Of a DNA stretch of 64,000 nt, positions 16,392 to 21,720 are shown piece after piece (the first letter of the stretch is position 1; every line of letters starts with the position of its first letter). The stretch lies in assembly GCA_003635315.1 (NCBI GenBank), contig PYJD01000043.1, positions 1 to 64,000 of the forward strand, written 5' to 3'. The notes under the pieces are model-generated. The model saw only the letters and a list, made by a program, of their open reading frames with translations. It ran no database searches and had not been told where the DNA came from. This DNA comes from Candidatus Poribacteria bacterium (GTDB lineage Bacteria; Poribacteria; WGA-4E; WGA-3G). A program made the position numbers and the translations under genes.

Positions 16392-19300
16392 CTATGTCTG
16401 CTCAACGCTAAGGGTTGCGGGTTCTCCGTTAAGTTTTTGGTCAAGACTGAAGGCACTTTCACTTGGGGATTCGGTTAATTCGGTTGTTAAGGTTTCGGAT
16501 AGGATATACTCCTGATGGGTTTCAAATGCTTCAGCGACAATCTTTGATTCGGTATTCAAAGTGAGTTTAATCCTATCAGATACGTTAAAGTCTGCTTCCT
16601 TCCGCATATTCTGGATTTTGTTGACAAGTTCACGTGCCATACCTTCAAGTATTAATTCATGTGTGAGCTCTGTTGAAAGTGCGACAAATTTCCGTGCATC
16701 TACCTCTACAAAGAAACCTTCCCGATTTTGTGTCTGCACATCAATATCTGATTCTTCAAGGGTATAGGTCTCGCCGGATGCTTCTACCTGTAAACTTCCG
16801 TTTGCTTCTAATTCAGCTTTTATCTGCATTGTATCTGCGGTAGCCAGTGCTTTGGCAATTGCTTGTACACCCTTTCCGTACTTTGGTCCTAATATCTTGA
16901 AGTTAGGTTTGAGTGTGACCTGAGCAAATGCATCCAAGTCTTCTGTAAAGACAATAGATTTAACATTTAGTTCATCCAGAATAAATGATGCTAAACGGTT
17001 GACGGTTTCTTTCTCTGTATTGGACAACCCACCGATGGTTATATCGGCAAGGGGTTGACGGGTTTTTATGTTGGAACGGTTTCGTGCGGCATGTCCCATG
17101 CTGATAACATCACGAGTAAAAGCCATATCGTCTTCTAATAGGGTGTCTATCAATGAATCATCTGATTCGGGATATGGAGCGAGGTGGACACTGAGTGGTG
17201 CCTCTGGATCGAGTGAACAGACTAAGTTCCGGTAGAGTTCATCCGCTAAGAATGGGGTAAATGGTGCAGAAAGTTTGGCAACGGTAACGAGCACTTCGTA
17301 AAGCGTAGCATAAGCTGCTTGTTTATCTTGTCCTGCTTCTGCTCCCCAGAACCGGTCTCGGGAACGTCGAACGTACCAGTTGCTGAGGTCGTCCACAAAT
17401 GCCTCAATGGCGCGAGGGGCATTTGTAAGGTGATAATTCTCCATATCGTTGCGAACTTTATCAATTAGCGAATTTAGTCGTGACAGAATCCATCTATCTA
17501 TGGTAGCGCGTTCGGCAACTGGTGGTGCGTCATCTAATACATTGACCTGCTCCAAATTGGCATACATAACGAAAAAACTATACACATTTTGTAGTGTCCC
17601 CATGAATTTTTTGAGTGCTTCGTCAATACCTTCGAGTTGGAAGGTGCGTTGTGTCCAAGGAGGTGATGCAGTGAACATATACCATCGCATAGCATCAGCG
17701 CCTTGGTTATCCAAGATTGTCCACGGATCTACAGTGTTTCCACGGCTTTTACTCATTTTTGACCCGTCTGAGGCGAGGATTAGCTCAAGACAGAGACAAT
17801 TCTTATAGGCTGGTTTGTCATACAGGAGTGTGCCTGTGGCGAGAAGACTATAGAACCAACCGCGGGTTTGGTCAATTGCTTCGGAGATGAAATCTGGTGG
17901 ATATGCTTTTTCAAACAGTTCTTTGTTTTCAAAGGGGTAGTGCCATTGTGCGGTGTGTGCACACCCGGAATCAAACCAGCAATCAATAACATCCAAGACA
18001 CGGGACATTGTGCCATTGCATTTGTGGCAGGTAAGTGTGACGTCGTCAACATAGGGACGATGTAGTTCAATATCGTCTGGTACATTGTTTCCGATTTCTT
18101 TTAATTCCTCTATACTCCCTACACAGTGTTGGTGTCCGCAATCATCACATATCCATACGGGTAGTGGTGTGCCCCAATACCGTTCGCGGCTCAGTCCCCA
18201 GTCAATGTTGTTTTCGAGCCAGTTTCCAAAGCGTCCATTTTTTATGTGTTCAGGATACCAGTTGATTTCTTGATTGTGTTGTAGCATTTGATTTCTGATG
18301 GCGGTGGTTCGGATGAACCATGATTCACGCGCGTAATAGAGTAGTGGATTATCGCATCGCCAACAGAATGGGTATTGGTGTGTATATTCAGAAGCCTTGA
18401 ATAATAACCCGCGTTGATCTAAGTTTTGAATGATTTTTGGATCAGCATCTTTGACATATTCGCCTGACCAGATGTCTTTAACAGTAGGAATGAATTTACC
18501 ATCAGCTCCCACTAATTGTATTAAGGGGAGATTGTGTTTCTGACCGATATCATAGTCGTCCTGTCCGAAGGCAGGTGCAATATGTACGAGCCCACTTCCT
18601 TCTGTGGTAGTGACGAAATCCCCTGTAACGACATAGTATGCTTTTTGATCATGCTTCCCGGCATCAAAAAGCGGCTCATATTCCCAATCACATAGATTGT
18701 AGCCTTTATAGATTTCAACGATTTTCGGGGGTTCATCTTCAAACAGTGTTGGTAGACATTCTTTCGCGAGGATAAGGTTTTGTCCGTTTTGTTCCACGGC
18801 AACATAATCGTAGTTTTCACCGACAGCCACGGCAACATTGGATGGCAATGTCCATGGGGTTGTTGTCCAGACAAGTAGATAGGTGTTTTCTTTATTTTTG
18901 AGAGGGAAACGGACGAAGATAGATGGGTCTGATACCTCTTGATAACCGAGAGCGACTTCGTGGCTTGCTAAGGTTGTGCCGCACCGGTAGCAATAGGGTT
19001 GCACCTTATGTCCTTGATAAAGGAGATCTTTATTCCATGCTTGCCGTAATACCCACCAGACACTCTCAATATAATCGTTGGACAATGTGATATATGCATC
19101 ATCTAAGTTGACCCAATAGCCGATTCGTTCGGTCATGGCATCCCAATCTTCTTTATATTGGAAAACGTTTTCTTTACACTTTTCGATAAAATTCTGAACA
19201 CCGTATGCTTCGAGTTCTGCTTTGTTTGTGATATTGAGTTGTTTTTCGACTTGGTATTCGACGGGGAGTCCATGTGTATCCCAACCAGCTTTTCTTTGGA

Positions 19301-19535
19301 CGTAATGTCCGGTCATAGTCTTGTATCTGCATACAGCATCTTTCATGATGCGTGCGAGTACGTGATGTACACCTGGCGGGGCATTTGCAAAGGGTGGTCC
19401 CTCCAAAAAGACAAAGGGTTGTGCGTGTTTATACATCTCCATACTTTTCTGGAAGATATCATTTTCACGCCAAAATTGAAGGATCTGTTTTTCCTTTTGA
19501 GCAAATGTGAATTGGGATGATACCTCATTAAACAT
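16392..19535 (-). CDS. ileS: Isoleucyl-tRNA synthetase, type 2 (IleRS2) with GVHH signature
   Basis: 1047 aa class I synthetase charging tRNA-Ile. The Rossmann start GPPFANAPPGVHHVLARIMKD is the eukaryote-like/type 2 form, KMSKS is at 593-597, and the CP1 editing domain shows TTTPWTLPSN. The C-terminus lacks the zinc finger of type 1 enzymes. The HIGH motif (HxGH) is replaced by GVHH (residues 55-58). GAGGA lies 8 bp upstream of the ATG. Expression appears controlled by the leader between 19556 and 19792: Ile-rich leader peptide, alternative hairpins and an intrinsic terminator ending 20 bp before the start. Confidence 0.95.
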   Translation of the reverse strand: MFNEVSSQFTFAQKEKQILQFWRENDIFQKSMEMYKHAQPFVFLEGPPFANAPPGVHHVLARIMKDAVCRYKTMTGHYVQRKAGWDTHGLPVEYQVEKQLNITNKAELEAYGVQNFIEKCKENVFQYKEDWDAMTERIGYWVNLDDAYITLSNDYIESVWWVLRQAWNKDLLYQGHKVQPYCYRCGTTLASHEVALGYQEVSDPSIFVRFPLKNKENTYLLVWTTTPWTLPSNVAVAVGENYDYVAVEQNGQNLILAKECLPTLFEDEPPKIVEIYKGYNLCDWEYEPLFDAGKHDQKAYYVVTGDFVTTTEGSGLVHIAPAFGQDDYDIGQKHNLPLIQLVGADGKFIPTVKDIWSGEYVKDADPKIIQNLDQRGLLFKASEYTHQYPFCWRCDNPLLYYARESWFIRTTAIRNQMLQHNQEINWYPEHIKNGRFGNWLENNIDWGLSRERYWGTPLPVWICDDCGHQHCVGSIEELKEIGNNVPDDIELHRPYVDDVTLTCHKCNGTMSRVLDVIDCWFDSGCAHTAQWHYPFENKELFEKAYPPDFISEAIDQTRGWFYSLLATGTLLYDKPAYKNCLCLELILASDGSKMSKSRGNTVDPWTILDNQGADAMRWYMFTASPPWTQRTFQLEGIDEALKKFMGTLQNVYSFFVMYANLEQVNVLDDAPPVAERATIDRWILSRLNSLIDKVRNDMENYHLTNAPRAIEAFVDDLSNWYVRRSRDRFWGAEAGQDKQAAYATLYEVLVTVAKLSAPFTPFLADELYRNLVCSLDPEAPLSVHLAPYPESDDSLIDTLLEDDMAFTRDVISMGHAARNRSNIKTRQPLADITIGGLSNTEKETVNRLASFILDELNVKSIVFTEDLDAFAQVTLKPNFKILGPKYGKGVQAIAKALATADTMQIKAELEANGSLQVEASGETYTLEESDIDVQTQNREGFFVEVDARKFVALSTELTHELILEGMARELVNKIQNMRKEADFNVSDRIKLTLNTESKIVAEAFETHQEYILSETLTTELTESPSESAFSLDQKLNGEPATLSVEQT

Positions 19536-19555: not shown

Positions 19556-19600
19556 AAAAAAACAAAACGCCCCACTGAAATTGTGTGTCAGTGATGGGCG
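19556..19600 (-). terminator. Attenuator terminator in the ileS leader
   Basis: On the minus strand CGCCCATCACTGA (19600-19588) pairs with TCAGTGGGGCG (19578-19568): 11 bp with a 2-nt bulge and a 9-nt loop, followed by TTTTGTTTTTTT. It lies between promoter and ileS, so it must be read through for ileS to be made. Confidence 0.8.
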
Positions 19601-19626
19601 TGTCTGAATACTATTTTGTGCTTACA

Positions 19627-19713
19627 TTAGCCCGTCACAGCACGACGAATAGCGATAATAATTCGTATGGTGTGAAGGGCAGCATTGTGTGTTGCAAGCG
19701 ATTGAAAAAGCAT
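19627..19713 (-). CDS. Ile-rich leader peptide controlling ileS
   Basis: 28-codon ORF (ATG 19713, TAA 19629-19627) with an AGGAT ribosome site 5 nt upstream. Residues 14-24 read HTIRIIIAIRR: five of seven consecutive positions 16-22 are Ile, encoded ATA, ATT, ATT, ATC and ATT. Its first half carries the sequence that pairs with the region around its own stop codon, and that region in turn can pair with the 5' arm of the terminator. This is the layout of amino-acid operon leader peptides such as ilvL or pheM. Confidence 0.75.
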   Translation of the reverse strand: MLFQSLATHNAALHTIRIIIAIRRAVTG

Positions 19714-19762
19714 CGGTTATCCTGCAGAGTCGTCTACGATTTGATTTTGATCCTCTTAATGT

Positions 19763-19792
19763 ATGATACTACATGCTATGGGATATTGTCAA
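19763..19792 (-). promoter_or_regulatory. ileS promoter
   Basis: TTGACA (19792-19787) and TATCAT (19768-19763), spacer 18 bp, ~50 bp upstream of the leader peptide start. The predicted leader RNA is about 220 nt. Confidence 0.6.
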
Positions 19793-19800
19793 ATTTTTAG

Positions 19801-21720
19801 GTGTCTAAGTTATGCTACTAAAGAGACATTTTCAATTAGAAATTGTGTTAGAATTAATAGTCGTAAAATCAACTTTTAATCCTAATATGCGGACAACTAA
19901 TAAGGTGCACAGACAGACATTTAATCCTAAATTCCCTGATGATAAATTGTGAAAATGTTGTATTTTTCCCAGTGCGAAGAAGTGTCGAAAAAGTGAAAAA
20001 AGTTACACTTTTTCCTACATTCTGTAGGATTTAAATTGGTGTAAATTACCCCTCTAACCCCTGTCATAGACTGACTTCACTCCACTTTTAATTAACTTTT
20101 TAAGAATTTGCAAAAAGTGTGATTTTGTGTTTTTGTTGTCCTTACGGAATTTGACAATTTCAATCTGCATATTATAGTCGTTTTTTTGACATAAAGATTT
20201 TTTTGTATTTAGGACGTTTTTATGGGTATTCATCATTTATTCTCTAATTATTTGTTTCTCATTTCGGCAAGTTTCAGGTTTTTGCTTAACTCATCAAGTA
20301 GAATATTCTTATGAAACAACAGTCTGGTGAATGTTATTTATGCTAAACTTTAGAATAAATTAGACACTCCACAACGGGTGAGGGGACCTCCCCCTACGCT
20401 GGGTGGTCTTCGTCTACATCGAAATGTCTCATTAATTATTAACTATACTATAACATTCATACCTCTATTTTGTTGTGTTATGCCACTGTTTAATTCTTAA
20501 AATTGTCCAAACTATAGTATATGTTATGACTTACGTAAAAAATCTTTCCTTTCTTGCAGCATTGAAAGACAGGTTATGCTACAAAAGAGACATTTTTATT
20601 TAGAAATTTTGCATTATTGATTACTTTTTCGTTAATTTATTTTGGTTATCAATCTCCTTTCAAGTGTTTCGATTCGGTGGTTTAAAAAAGCGTCGAAAAG
20701 CGGAAAATGTTACACTTTTTGTCACATCGTGTGTCATTTATTTTCGATATAATTATGGCTCCCATACCGTACTACACTGGGTTTATTACCTTAAATATAT
20801 GAGAAAGTATAATTTTAAATTTTCTCATTTTTGTGTTATTTCTGTTTTGCACTAAATATTCACAATTGTTAATATATTGATTCAATTTGATTTCCAAACT
20901 TTGTATCAACCTTGTTACTCCAGTGGAGGGGTGGTGTAGTAGTACTTTCTTCTATTTTGTTTATGTAATTCGTCATTTTTATTTATACCATTTCAATTAA
21001 TTTTTGTCCCATTACCTATTGTTAGAAATGAAGCGGAATGTGGCACAAACTGGAAAGTTTATGCTACAAGAGAGACATTATATATCAGAAATGGTATTAT
21101 ACACCTTTAAAAATCTCTGTCCTTAGTTCTCAAATTCGTGAGGGATTCAAGGTTATCCTCGTTTTTTAGTTTTTCAAGTTTTTTTAGTCGGTTTTTAAAA
21201 TTTCCGATTTTGAAGTGCCTTGCAGTAAGTCTGGGCTTGTGTTCATAGCGTATGACTAAAAGCAGGTGAATTTTTTAAAATTTGAAAAACTTGAAAACTA
21301 TGTTTTCTTGTTAATTTGCTATATACCCAGAAAGGTATAAGGATTGCCTGATATTTGTCAGTTGAATTTTAATATCATATTTTATCATAACAAAATAGAC
21401 CTATGTTGCTTATATATCCTATATTACATAATACTATTATAACATTAGATGTCAAACATTTGCAACCTTATTTTTCACGTATGTAACTTTAGTTGTTAGT
21501 GTATATATTTTTCTTCATTATTTTTTTAGTTAGTTGGAAATATTTGCGTTTAGGCGTCGGATTGCGCGGATTAAGCGGACTACGCGGAACGCTTTTGGTG
21601 TATTTTAATTTTCTTTTTTTAATGGTGAGGGGGTTAATGGTTTTTGTTTGAATTGTGTATTTTGCGGAGGGGTGGGTTTGGGATGGATTCGGCGTGTTTG
21701 TAAACCATCCCACCTGTGAA
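19801..21720. other. 1.9-kb AT-rich region without genes, carrying three copies of a degenerate repeat
   Basis: No credible coding frame on either strand. A motif close to TATGCTACAAAAGAGACATT occurs at about 19812, 20574 and 21060, followed each time by a variant of ATTTAGAAATTTTG; a related copy preceded by CACAAACTGAAAGTTTG is at 32841. A second element (AAAGTTACACTTTTTCCTAC- and AAATGTTACACTTTTTGTCAC-types) occurs at ~20000 and ~20710 and, inverted, at ~61550. These look like decayed small mobile elements. Confidence 0.5.

Follow-up and report, generated by a model that had tools for sequence, protein, structure and literature searches.

Expression of the isoleucyl-tRNA synthetase gene ileS in a Candidatus Poribacteria bacterium is very probably controlled by ribosome-mediated transcription attenuation that senses the charging of Ile-tRNA, judging from the layout of the ileS leader and from its counterparts in related genomes. 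Sequence and comparison establish the predicted parts of this attenuator, their order, their geometry and their conservation, together with a match between leader codons and downstream gene in related attenuators. A single RNA core with exchangeable sensor codons throughout the phylum is a more interesting reading than an attenuator of ileS alone.

Layout of the ileS leader

The window (the whole stretch of DNA that was analysed, 64,000 nucleotides) carries on its minus strand, over the span 19792-19535, a promoter, a leader ORF, an intrinsic terminator and the start of ileS, in that order; all of the features described here lie on this strand. The promoter (19763-19792) consists of a -35 box TTGACA (19792-19787), an 18-nt spacer and a -10 box TATCAT (19768-19763), and matches the consensus at 11 of 12 bases in a consensus scan. 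A TTGACA-17/18-TATNAT-like site is found 5' of ileS in relatives, also in the leaderless genome G019. Downstream of the promoter, a probable Shine-Dalgarno sequence AGGA (19720-19723) precedes a leader ORF of 28 codons (19627-19713) with the translation MLFQSLATHNAALHTIRIIIAIRRAVTG-stop, in which the putative regulatory Ile codons are numbers 16, 18, 19, 20 and 22 (19648-19668). Segment 1, the putative protector (GCCCTTCACA, 19671-19680), pairs at 9 of 10 positions with segment 2 (TGTGACGGGC, 19630-19639), which spans the final codons of the leader as far as the stop and forms the 5' arm of the antiterminator; segment 2 in turn pairs at 8 of 9 positions with segment 3 (GCCCATCAC, 19591-19599), which is common to antiterminator and terminator. 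The terminator (19556-19601) has its arms at 19601-19588 and 19578-19567, the second being segment 4, and its stem (19601-19567) is followed by TTTTGTTTTTTT, with the T-run extending to 19556. These pairing counts, and the coordinates of promoter, leader ORF, Ile codons, segments and terminator, had all been proposed in a sequence-only reading of the window and were reproduced here.

The controlled gene (16392-19535) starts at 19535, 20 nt downstream of the T-run, and encodes a type 2 isoleucyl-tRNA synthetase of 1047 aa with Pfam domain PF00133 and an anticodon-binding domain. The best PDB matches of its product are the IleRS structures 8c8w (1028 bits) and 1ile (918 bits), with S. aureus 1ffy at 353 bits, and it is the sole match in the genome above the 1e-100 threshold. 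A dispersed repeat of about 42 nt is present at 19809-19850 and 20573-20611 of the window, immediately upstream of the promoter, and has about 25 more copies in the genome with identities of 78-96%.

Leader reading frame and isoleucine codons

Within the window's leader alone the enrichment of Ile is modest (naive p about 0.004, uncorrected) and, as a single sequence, only suggestive; the Ile run becomes decisive because it is conserved in relatives. The ileS upstream sequences compared represent the family of this genome (f1) and seven others. Leaders of f1 end in (I)IIIAIRRAVVG-stop, with the stop codon abutting segment 2 (GTGGTGGGC-TAA), and the four core Ile positions hold Ile in 42-45 of 45 aligned leaders. 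Among the f1 relatives the length of the run varies from III to IIIII through in-frame, whole ATT codons, and over codons -11 to -4 of the 45 aligned leaders third codon positions hold 39 of the 64 differences. The third-position bias and the growth of the run by whole ATT codons are signs of coding selection on the predicted leader. The proposed ORF with five Ile codons within positions 16-22 thus stands, both its frame and its run being kept in relatives, and alignment of the ileS upstream regions found the 2:3 and 3:4 stems conserved along with the leader ORF and its Ile codons.

Competing RNA folds

The predicted folding energy of the 214-nt leader, -57.1 kcal/mol (z = -4.3), is below that of every one of 200 shuffles. 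RNA folding assigns -16.6 kcal/mol to the terminator hairpin, which is followed by the T-run; a consensus terminator scan of the locus did not pick this terminator up, because its stem is bulged and its loop exceeds the length that the scan permits. In nearly all relatives the 3:4 terminator can be recognised as an equivalent hairpin plus T-run, whilst the RNAalifold consensus in both alignments is the 2:3 antiterminator and not the terminator.

Segment 2 pairs with segment 3 in all families, varying compensatorily. Amongst 26 distinct ileS segment-2/3 pairs, 83% of the cells of the 2:3 helix are paired, against 35-64% in slid controls, and 16 cells are changed on both sides versus 7.6 in shuffles, a figure that counts sequences and not independent events. 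For 17 leaders of several genes 99.3% of cells are paired, likewise more than in slid controls, with double changes, again counted by sequence, at 5 versus 2.2 when shuffled. The low variability of the core keeps these statistics modest and, given also that they count sequences rather than events, the covariation is support and not proof. An example is provided by G006/G015b, where GCCC in segment 3 has become ACCC and the GGGC-type ends of segments 2 and 4 have become GGGT. The mutually exclusive 2:3 antiterminator and 3:4 terminator suggested by the original letters are therefore a conserved feature of Poribacteria. The 1:2 hairpin proposed alongside them reaches significance in the window itself (p = 0.01) but is not conserved across the phylum; its z averages just -1.03 over 60 leaders, 15% of which reach p <= 0.05, and it therefore looks like a local feature.

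Ribosome geometry and proposed mechanism

Assuming that the leading edge of the ribosome lies about 15 nt beyond the P site, a ribosome whose A site is on codons 18-20 would leave segment 2 (19639-19630) free, the edge being near 19644 when codon 20 occupies the A site, whilst a ribosome at the stop codon would extend to near 19617 and cover it. For an RNA that ends at the first arm of the terminator, the minimum-energy fold in the stalled state is the 2:3 pairing (-16.3 kcal/mol); with a stop-codon ribosome over segment 2, the minimum-energy fold is the terminator. The earlier suggestion that a stall on the Ile codons frees segment 2, and that a ribosome at the stop codon masks it, agrees with both the coordinates and these constrained folds. 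Since the terminator is the more stable structure in the complete RNA, the antiterminator must act by forming first, and it likewise works by forming first in known attenuators.

In the proposed mechanism, RNA polymerase would start at the promoter (19792-19763) and a ribosome would translate the leader. When Ile-tRNA is ample the ribosome would reach the stop codon (19629-19627) and mask segment 2, so that segment 3 would pair with segment 4 and transcription would stop before ileS. When Ile-tRNA is scarce the ribosome would stall on codons 16-22, leaving segment 2 free to pair with the emerging segment 3, in which case no terminator would form and ileS would be transcribed. What we infer from this arrangement of the sequence at the ileS leader is that the ribosome stalls, that transcription terminates and that the system responds to charging.

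Conservation and decay across the phylum

The leader element was found before ileS in 46 of 49 genomes of family f1 using model R1, which was built from the leader and includes among its training sequences some from these 49 genomes. For two of the three f1 genomes without the element (G004 and G022) there was no ileS match in the assembly. The leader has been lost in G019, where the ileS ribosome-binding site follows immediately on the promoter, and degenerate versions before ileS occur across the Poribacteria phylum, G020 having two Ile codons, G062 a broken frame and G066 no leader. At E <= 1e-4, model R2 matched a core in 73 of 85 Poribacteria genomes versus 1 of 204 from outside the phylum. 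The sole outside match (L417; G267:C69:10983-11118) has a Cys-rich leader, CMCCGIAMCNC, with a like core, and its downstream gene, named by eye from its sequence, is O-acetylhomoserine sulfhydrylase-like. Amongst upstream regions of IleRS relatives in other phyla, an Ile-rich leader with a terminator was present in 0 of 30 and a T-box motif in two.

The ileS leaders of family f6 (G073, L337; G077, L411) are rich in Phe and Tyr instead of Ile, and a co-directional DAHP synthase gene directly follows ileS in G073, as if the specificity of the leader had switched along with the content of the operon. Families f2 and f4 have a divergent IleRS under the same leader type. Replacement by a foreign ileS under that leader was considered and rejected: the divergent IleRS falls within Poribacteria, where it forms a long branch (support 85), and vertical descent is therefore simpler. 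The G015 assembly contains two ileS copies (L022 and L039), both of which have a separate Ile leader and terminator.

The same core before other amino-acid genes

Cores elsewhere were located with models R1 and R2 and the leaders then decoded; the ORFs were picked by eye from candidates that stop at or close to segment 2, and p-values were left uncorrected. Leaders of tyrS are Tyr-rich (..QPYFYYTYQYVYSLL.. in G082, ..NFYYYYCG-stop in G083 and ..ITYLYYYTS.. in G071), and codon-matched examples come from several Poribacteria families (L304, L297, L298, L316, L410). A DAHP synthase leader in G044 is rich in Tyr, Phe and Trp (..FVFYLYLYLYLYGNDRW-stop), and in the window's own genome a DAHP synthase gene is preceded by a leader that is likewise rich in these residues and has competing hairpins (..FLIHFGTLIALWLYPFLYSDVRW-stop; G000:C18:5558-5684, L377), here as a weak match (E 0.015). 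Leaders of leuS are Leu-matched (..SALALRLRLLGLLRLKS.. in G075 and ..STLLDLVLLRLRGL.. in G070) and were found in families f2, f4, f7 and f8 (L382, L395, L404, L405, L408, L389). Four further assignments are tentative, each coming from one genome: Met-rich leaders before metG (..IIMIFMMV.. in G062, L387) and HcyBio (..NNMMIMMAMSM.. in G082, L386), an Ile-rich leader before cimA (..AVIAIIIIIRI.. in G073, L396) and an Arg-rich leader before argD (..FIRVRRSRSG-stop in G071, L391).

In the genomes first sampled, valS, leuS, thrS, serS and proS had no clear cognate leader with terminator, the leuS leaders being found later. The gene hisS in G062 (L381) has a core match and was not counted because a His-rich ORF is absent, and the R2 matches in G013 and G026, with E near 0.04-0.06, appear to be chance hits. 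Other f1 DAHP synthase leaders (L378-L380, L393, L397-L403, L412, L414, L415) vary in their number of YL repeats. In genus g2 a paralogue of the ileS leader (..CRAVVGE-stop in G044) is found with a terminator before a secreted DUF5916/CBM9-like gene (L295, L296, L302).

The pairings seen are thus Ile with ileS and cimA, Leu with leuS, Tyr with tyrS, Tyr/Phe/Trp with DAHP synthases, Met with metG and HcyBio, and Arg with argD. On balance we favour the view that a re-deployable cassette, comprising the core GATGGTGGGC ... GCCCATCATCGA ... T-run and gene-matched leader codons, serves beside the T-boxes of pheS and ilv genes as a main tRNA-charging sensor in Poribacteria.

Alternative explanations and T-boxes

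The ileS leader might be a ribosome-controlled attenuator that reads a general slowdown of translation and not isoleucine specifically, since the terminator/antiterminator logic requires just a slow ribosome. The Ile run is short and includes Ala and Arg, and the paralogous leader before the DUF5916/CBM9-like gene is without clear amino-acid bias. Such a general sensor is nonetheless improbable, as the leader codons follow the downstream gene, with Ile at ileS and cimA, Tyr at tyrS, Leu at leuS and Tyr/Phe/Trp at DAHP synthase genes.

Autoregulation of synthetases is generally known, E. coli thrS being an example, and with a synthetase as the target the leader RNA could instead be bound by IleRS or another protein that controls termination. 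We regard this as very unlikely given that the same core precedes the non-synthetase genes for DAHP synthase, cimA and argD, that the leader carries an in-frame coding signal, and that the divergent IleRS of f2 and f4 retains the same leader type. Equally hard to credit is a plain terminator between promoter and ileS accompanied by a chance ORF and no regulation: five Ile codons in one sequence do give a p of only about 0.004, but conservation, third-position bias, antiterminator pairing and codon matching all speak for a regulatory leader, and a terminator ahead of an essential gene would be costly unless a read-through device exists.

No T-box was found at ileS in the 12 genomes checked, most of which have T-boxes elsewhere, at pheS or ilv genes; both devices are therefore in use in the phylum, ileS belonging to the leader-peptide group. 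Rfam gave no match at the ileS leader under strict or permissive settings, T-box family RF00230 included, and the Rfam amino-acid leader families were not matched, the best score being that of rnk_pseudo at 17.9 bits versus a gathering score of 55 (E 1.1). The absence of a T-box motif before ileS, which the sequence-only reading had claimed, is upheld by both results. A diverged T-box or another tRNA- or metabolite-binding riboswitch, for which the T-boxes at pheS and ilv genes of these genomes might speak, is scarcely credible for a leader that is coding and has no Rfam match, before a gene with no T-box in 12 genomes. The pheS T-box of the window's own genome scores 69.5 bits, which is below the gathering score, but has an intact GGGTGGTACCGCG. 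T-boxes with a TTC specifier occur at pheS in Poribacteria (L189, L192-L196), and those at ilvB/ilvD in relatives (L228, L230, L232-L236, L238, L239, L241) have by eye an apparent GTC (Val) specifier.

Significance and comparison with known systems

The mechanism proposed for ileS is classical, whilst its application to this gene, its phylum-wide conservation and its redeployment for other amino acids appear to be undescribed. Searchable open-access papers held no description of leader-peptide attenuation of ileS, or of any in Poribacteria; a comparative survey from 2010, which covers attenuation in amino-acid and aminoacyl-tRNA operons (doi 10.1134/S0026893310010164, cited in PMC4833913), might list ileS elsewhere. 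If the cassette reading is true, leader-peptide attenuators for Tyr, Met, Arg and ileS would be new targets. An uncultured phylum would also have put ileS, a known T-box target, under a leader-peptide device, with T-boxes serving pheS and ilv. Codon swapping on one RNA core would be a natural experiment on how the amino-acid specificity of an attenuator evolves, with loss in G019 and G066, decay in G020 and what looks like a change of specificity in f6. Short leader RNAs are predicted to occur in metatranscriptomes of sponges and other Poribacteria habitats.

E. coli pheST is a leader-peptide attenuator of a synthetase and, with the amino-acid operons, made up the precedents named in the sequence-only reading. 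Those precedents hold, but the list was too short, as synthetase leader-peptide attenuators have also been predicted for trpS and leuS in Streptomyces (PMC1262725) and for hisS/hisZ in Bacillus (PMC2965389). The ileS leader resembles all of these in applying attenuation logic to an aminoacyl-tRNA synthetase, and differs in the amino acid and in being phylum-wide rather than confined to some species.

Leader-peptide attenuators of enteric amino-acid operons are known for trp, his, leu, thr, ilvGMEDA, ilvBN and pheA (PMC1183508). Like these, the Poribacteria leader has an ORF with a run of cognate codons, a competing antiterminator and intrinsic terminator, and a stop codon positioned for the ribosome to mask the antiterminator arm. 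Unlike these, its target is ileS, its phylum is Poribacteria and its 1:2 hairpin is not conserved, and no sequence relation to them was found (no Rfam leader match). T-box riboswitches, which in their translational form control ileS in Actinobacteria (PMC1262725), share with it the control of a synthetase and the sensing of tRNA charging, the latter being predicted here; unlike them, the Poribacteria ileS leader has no T-box, and its sensing is proposed to act through the translating ribosome.
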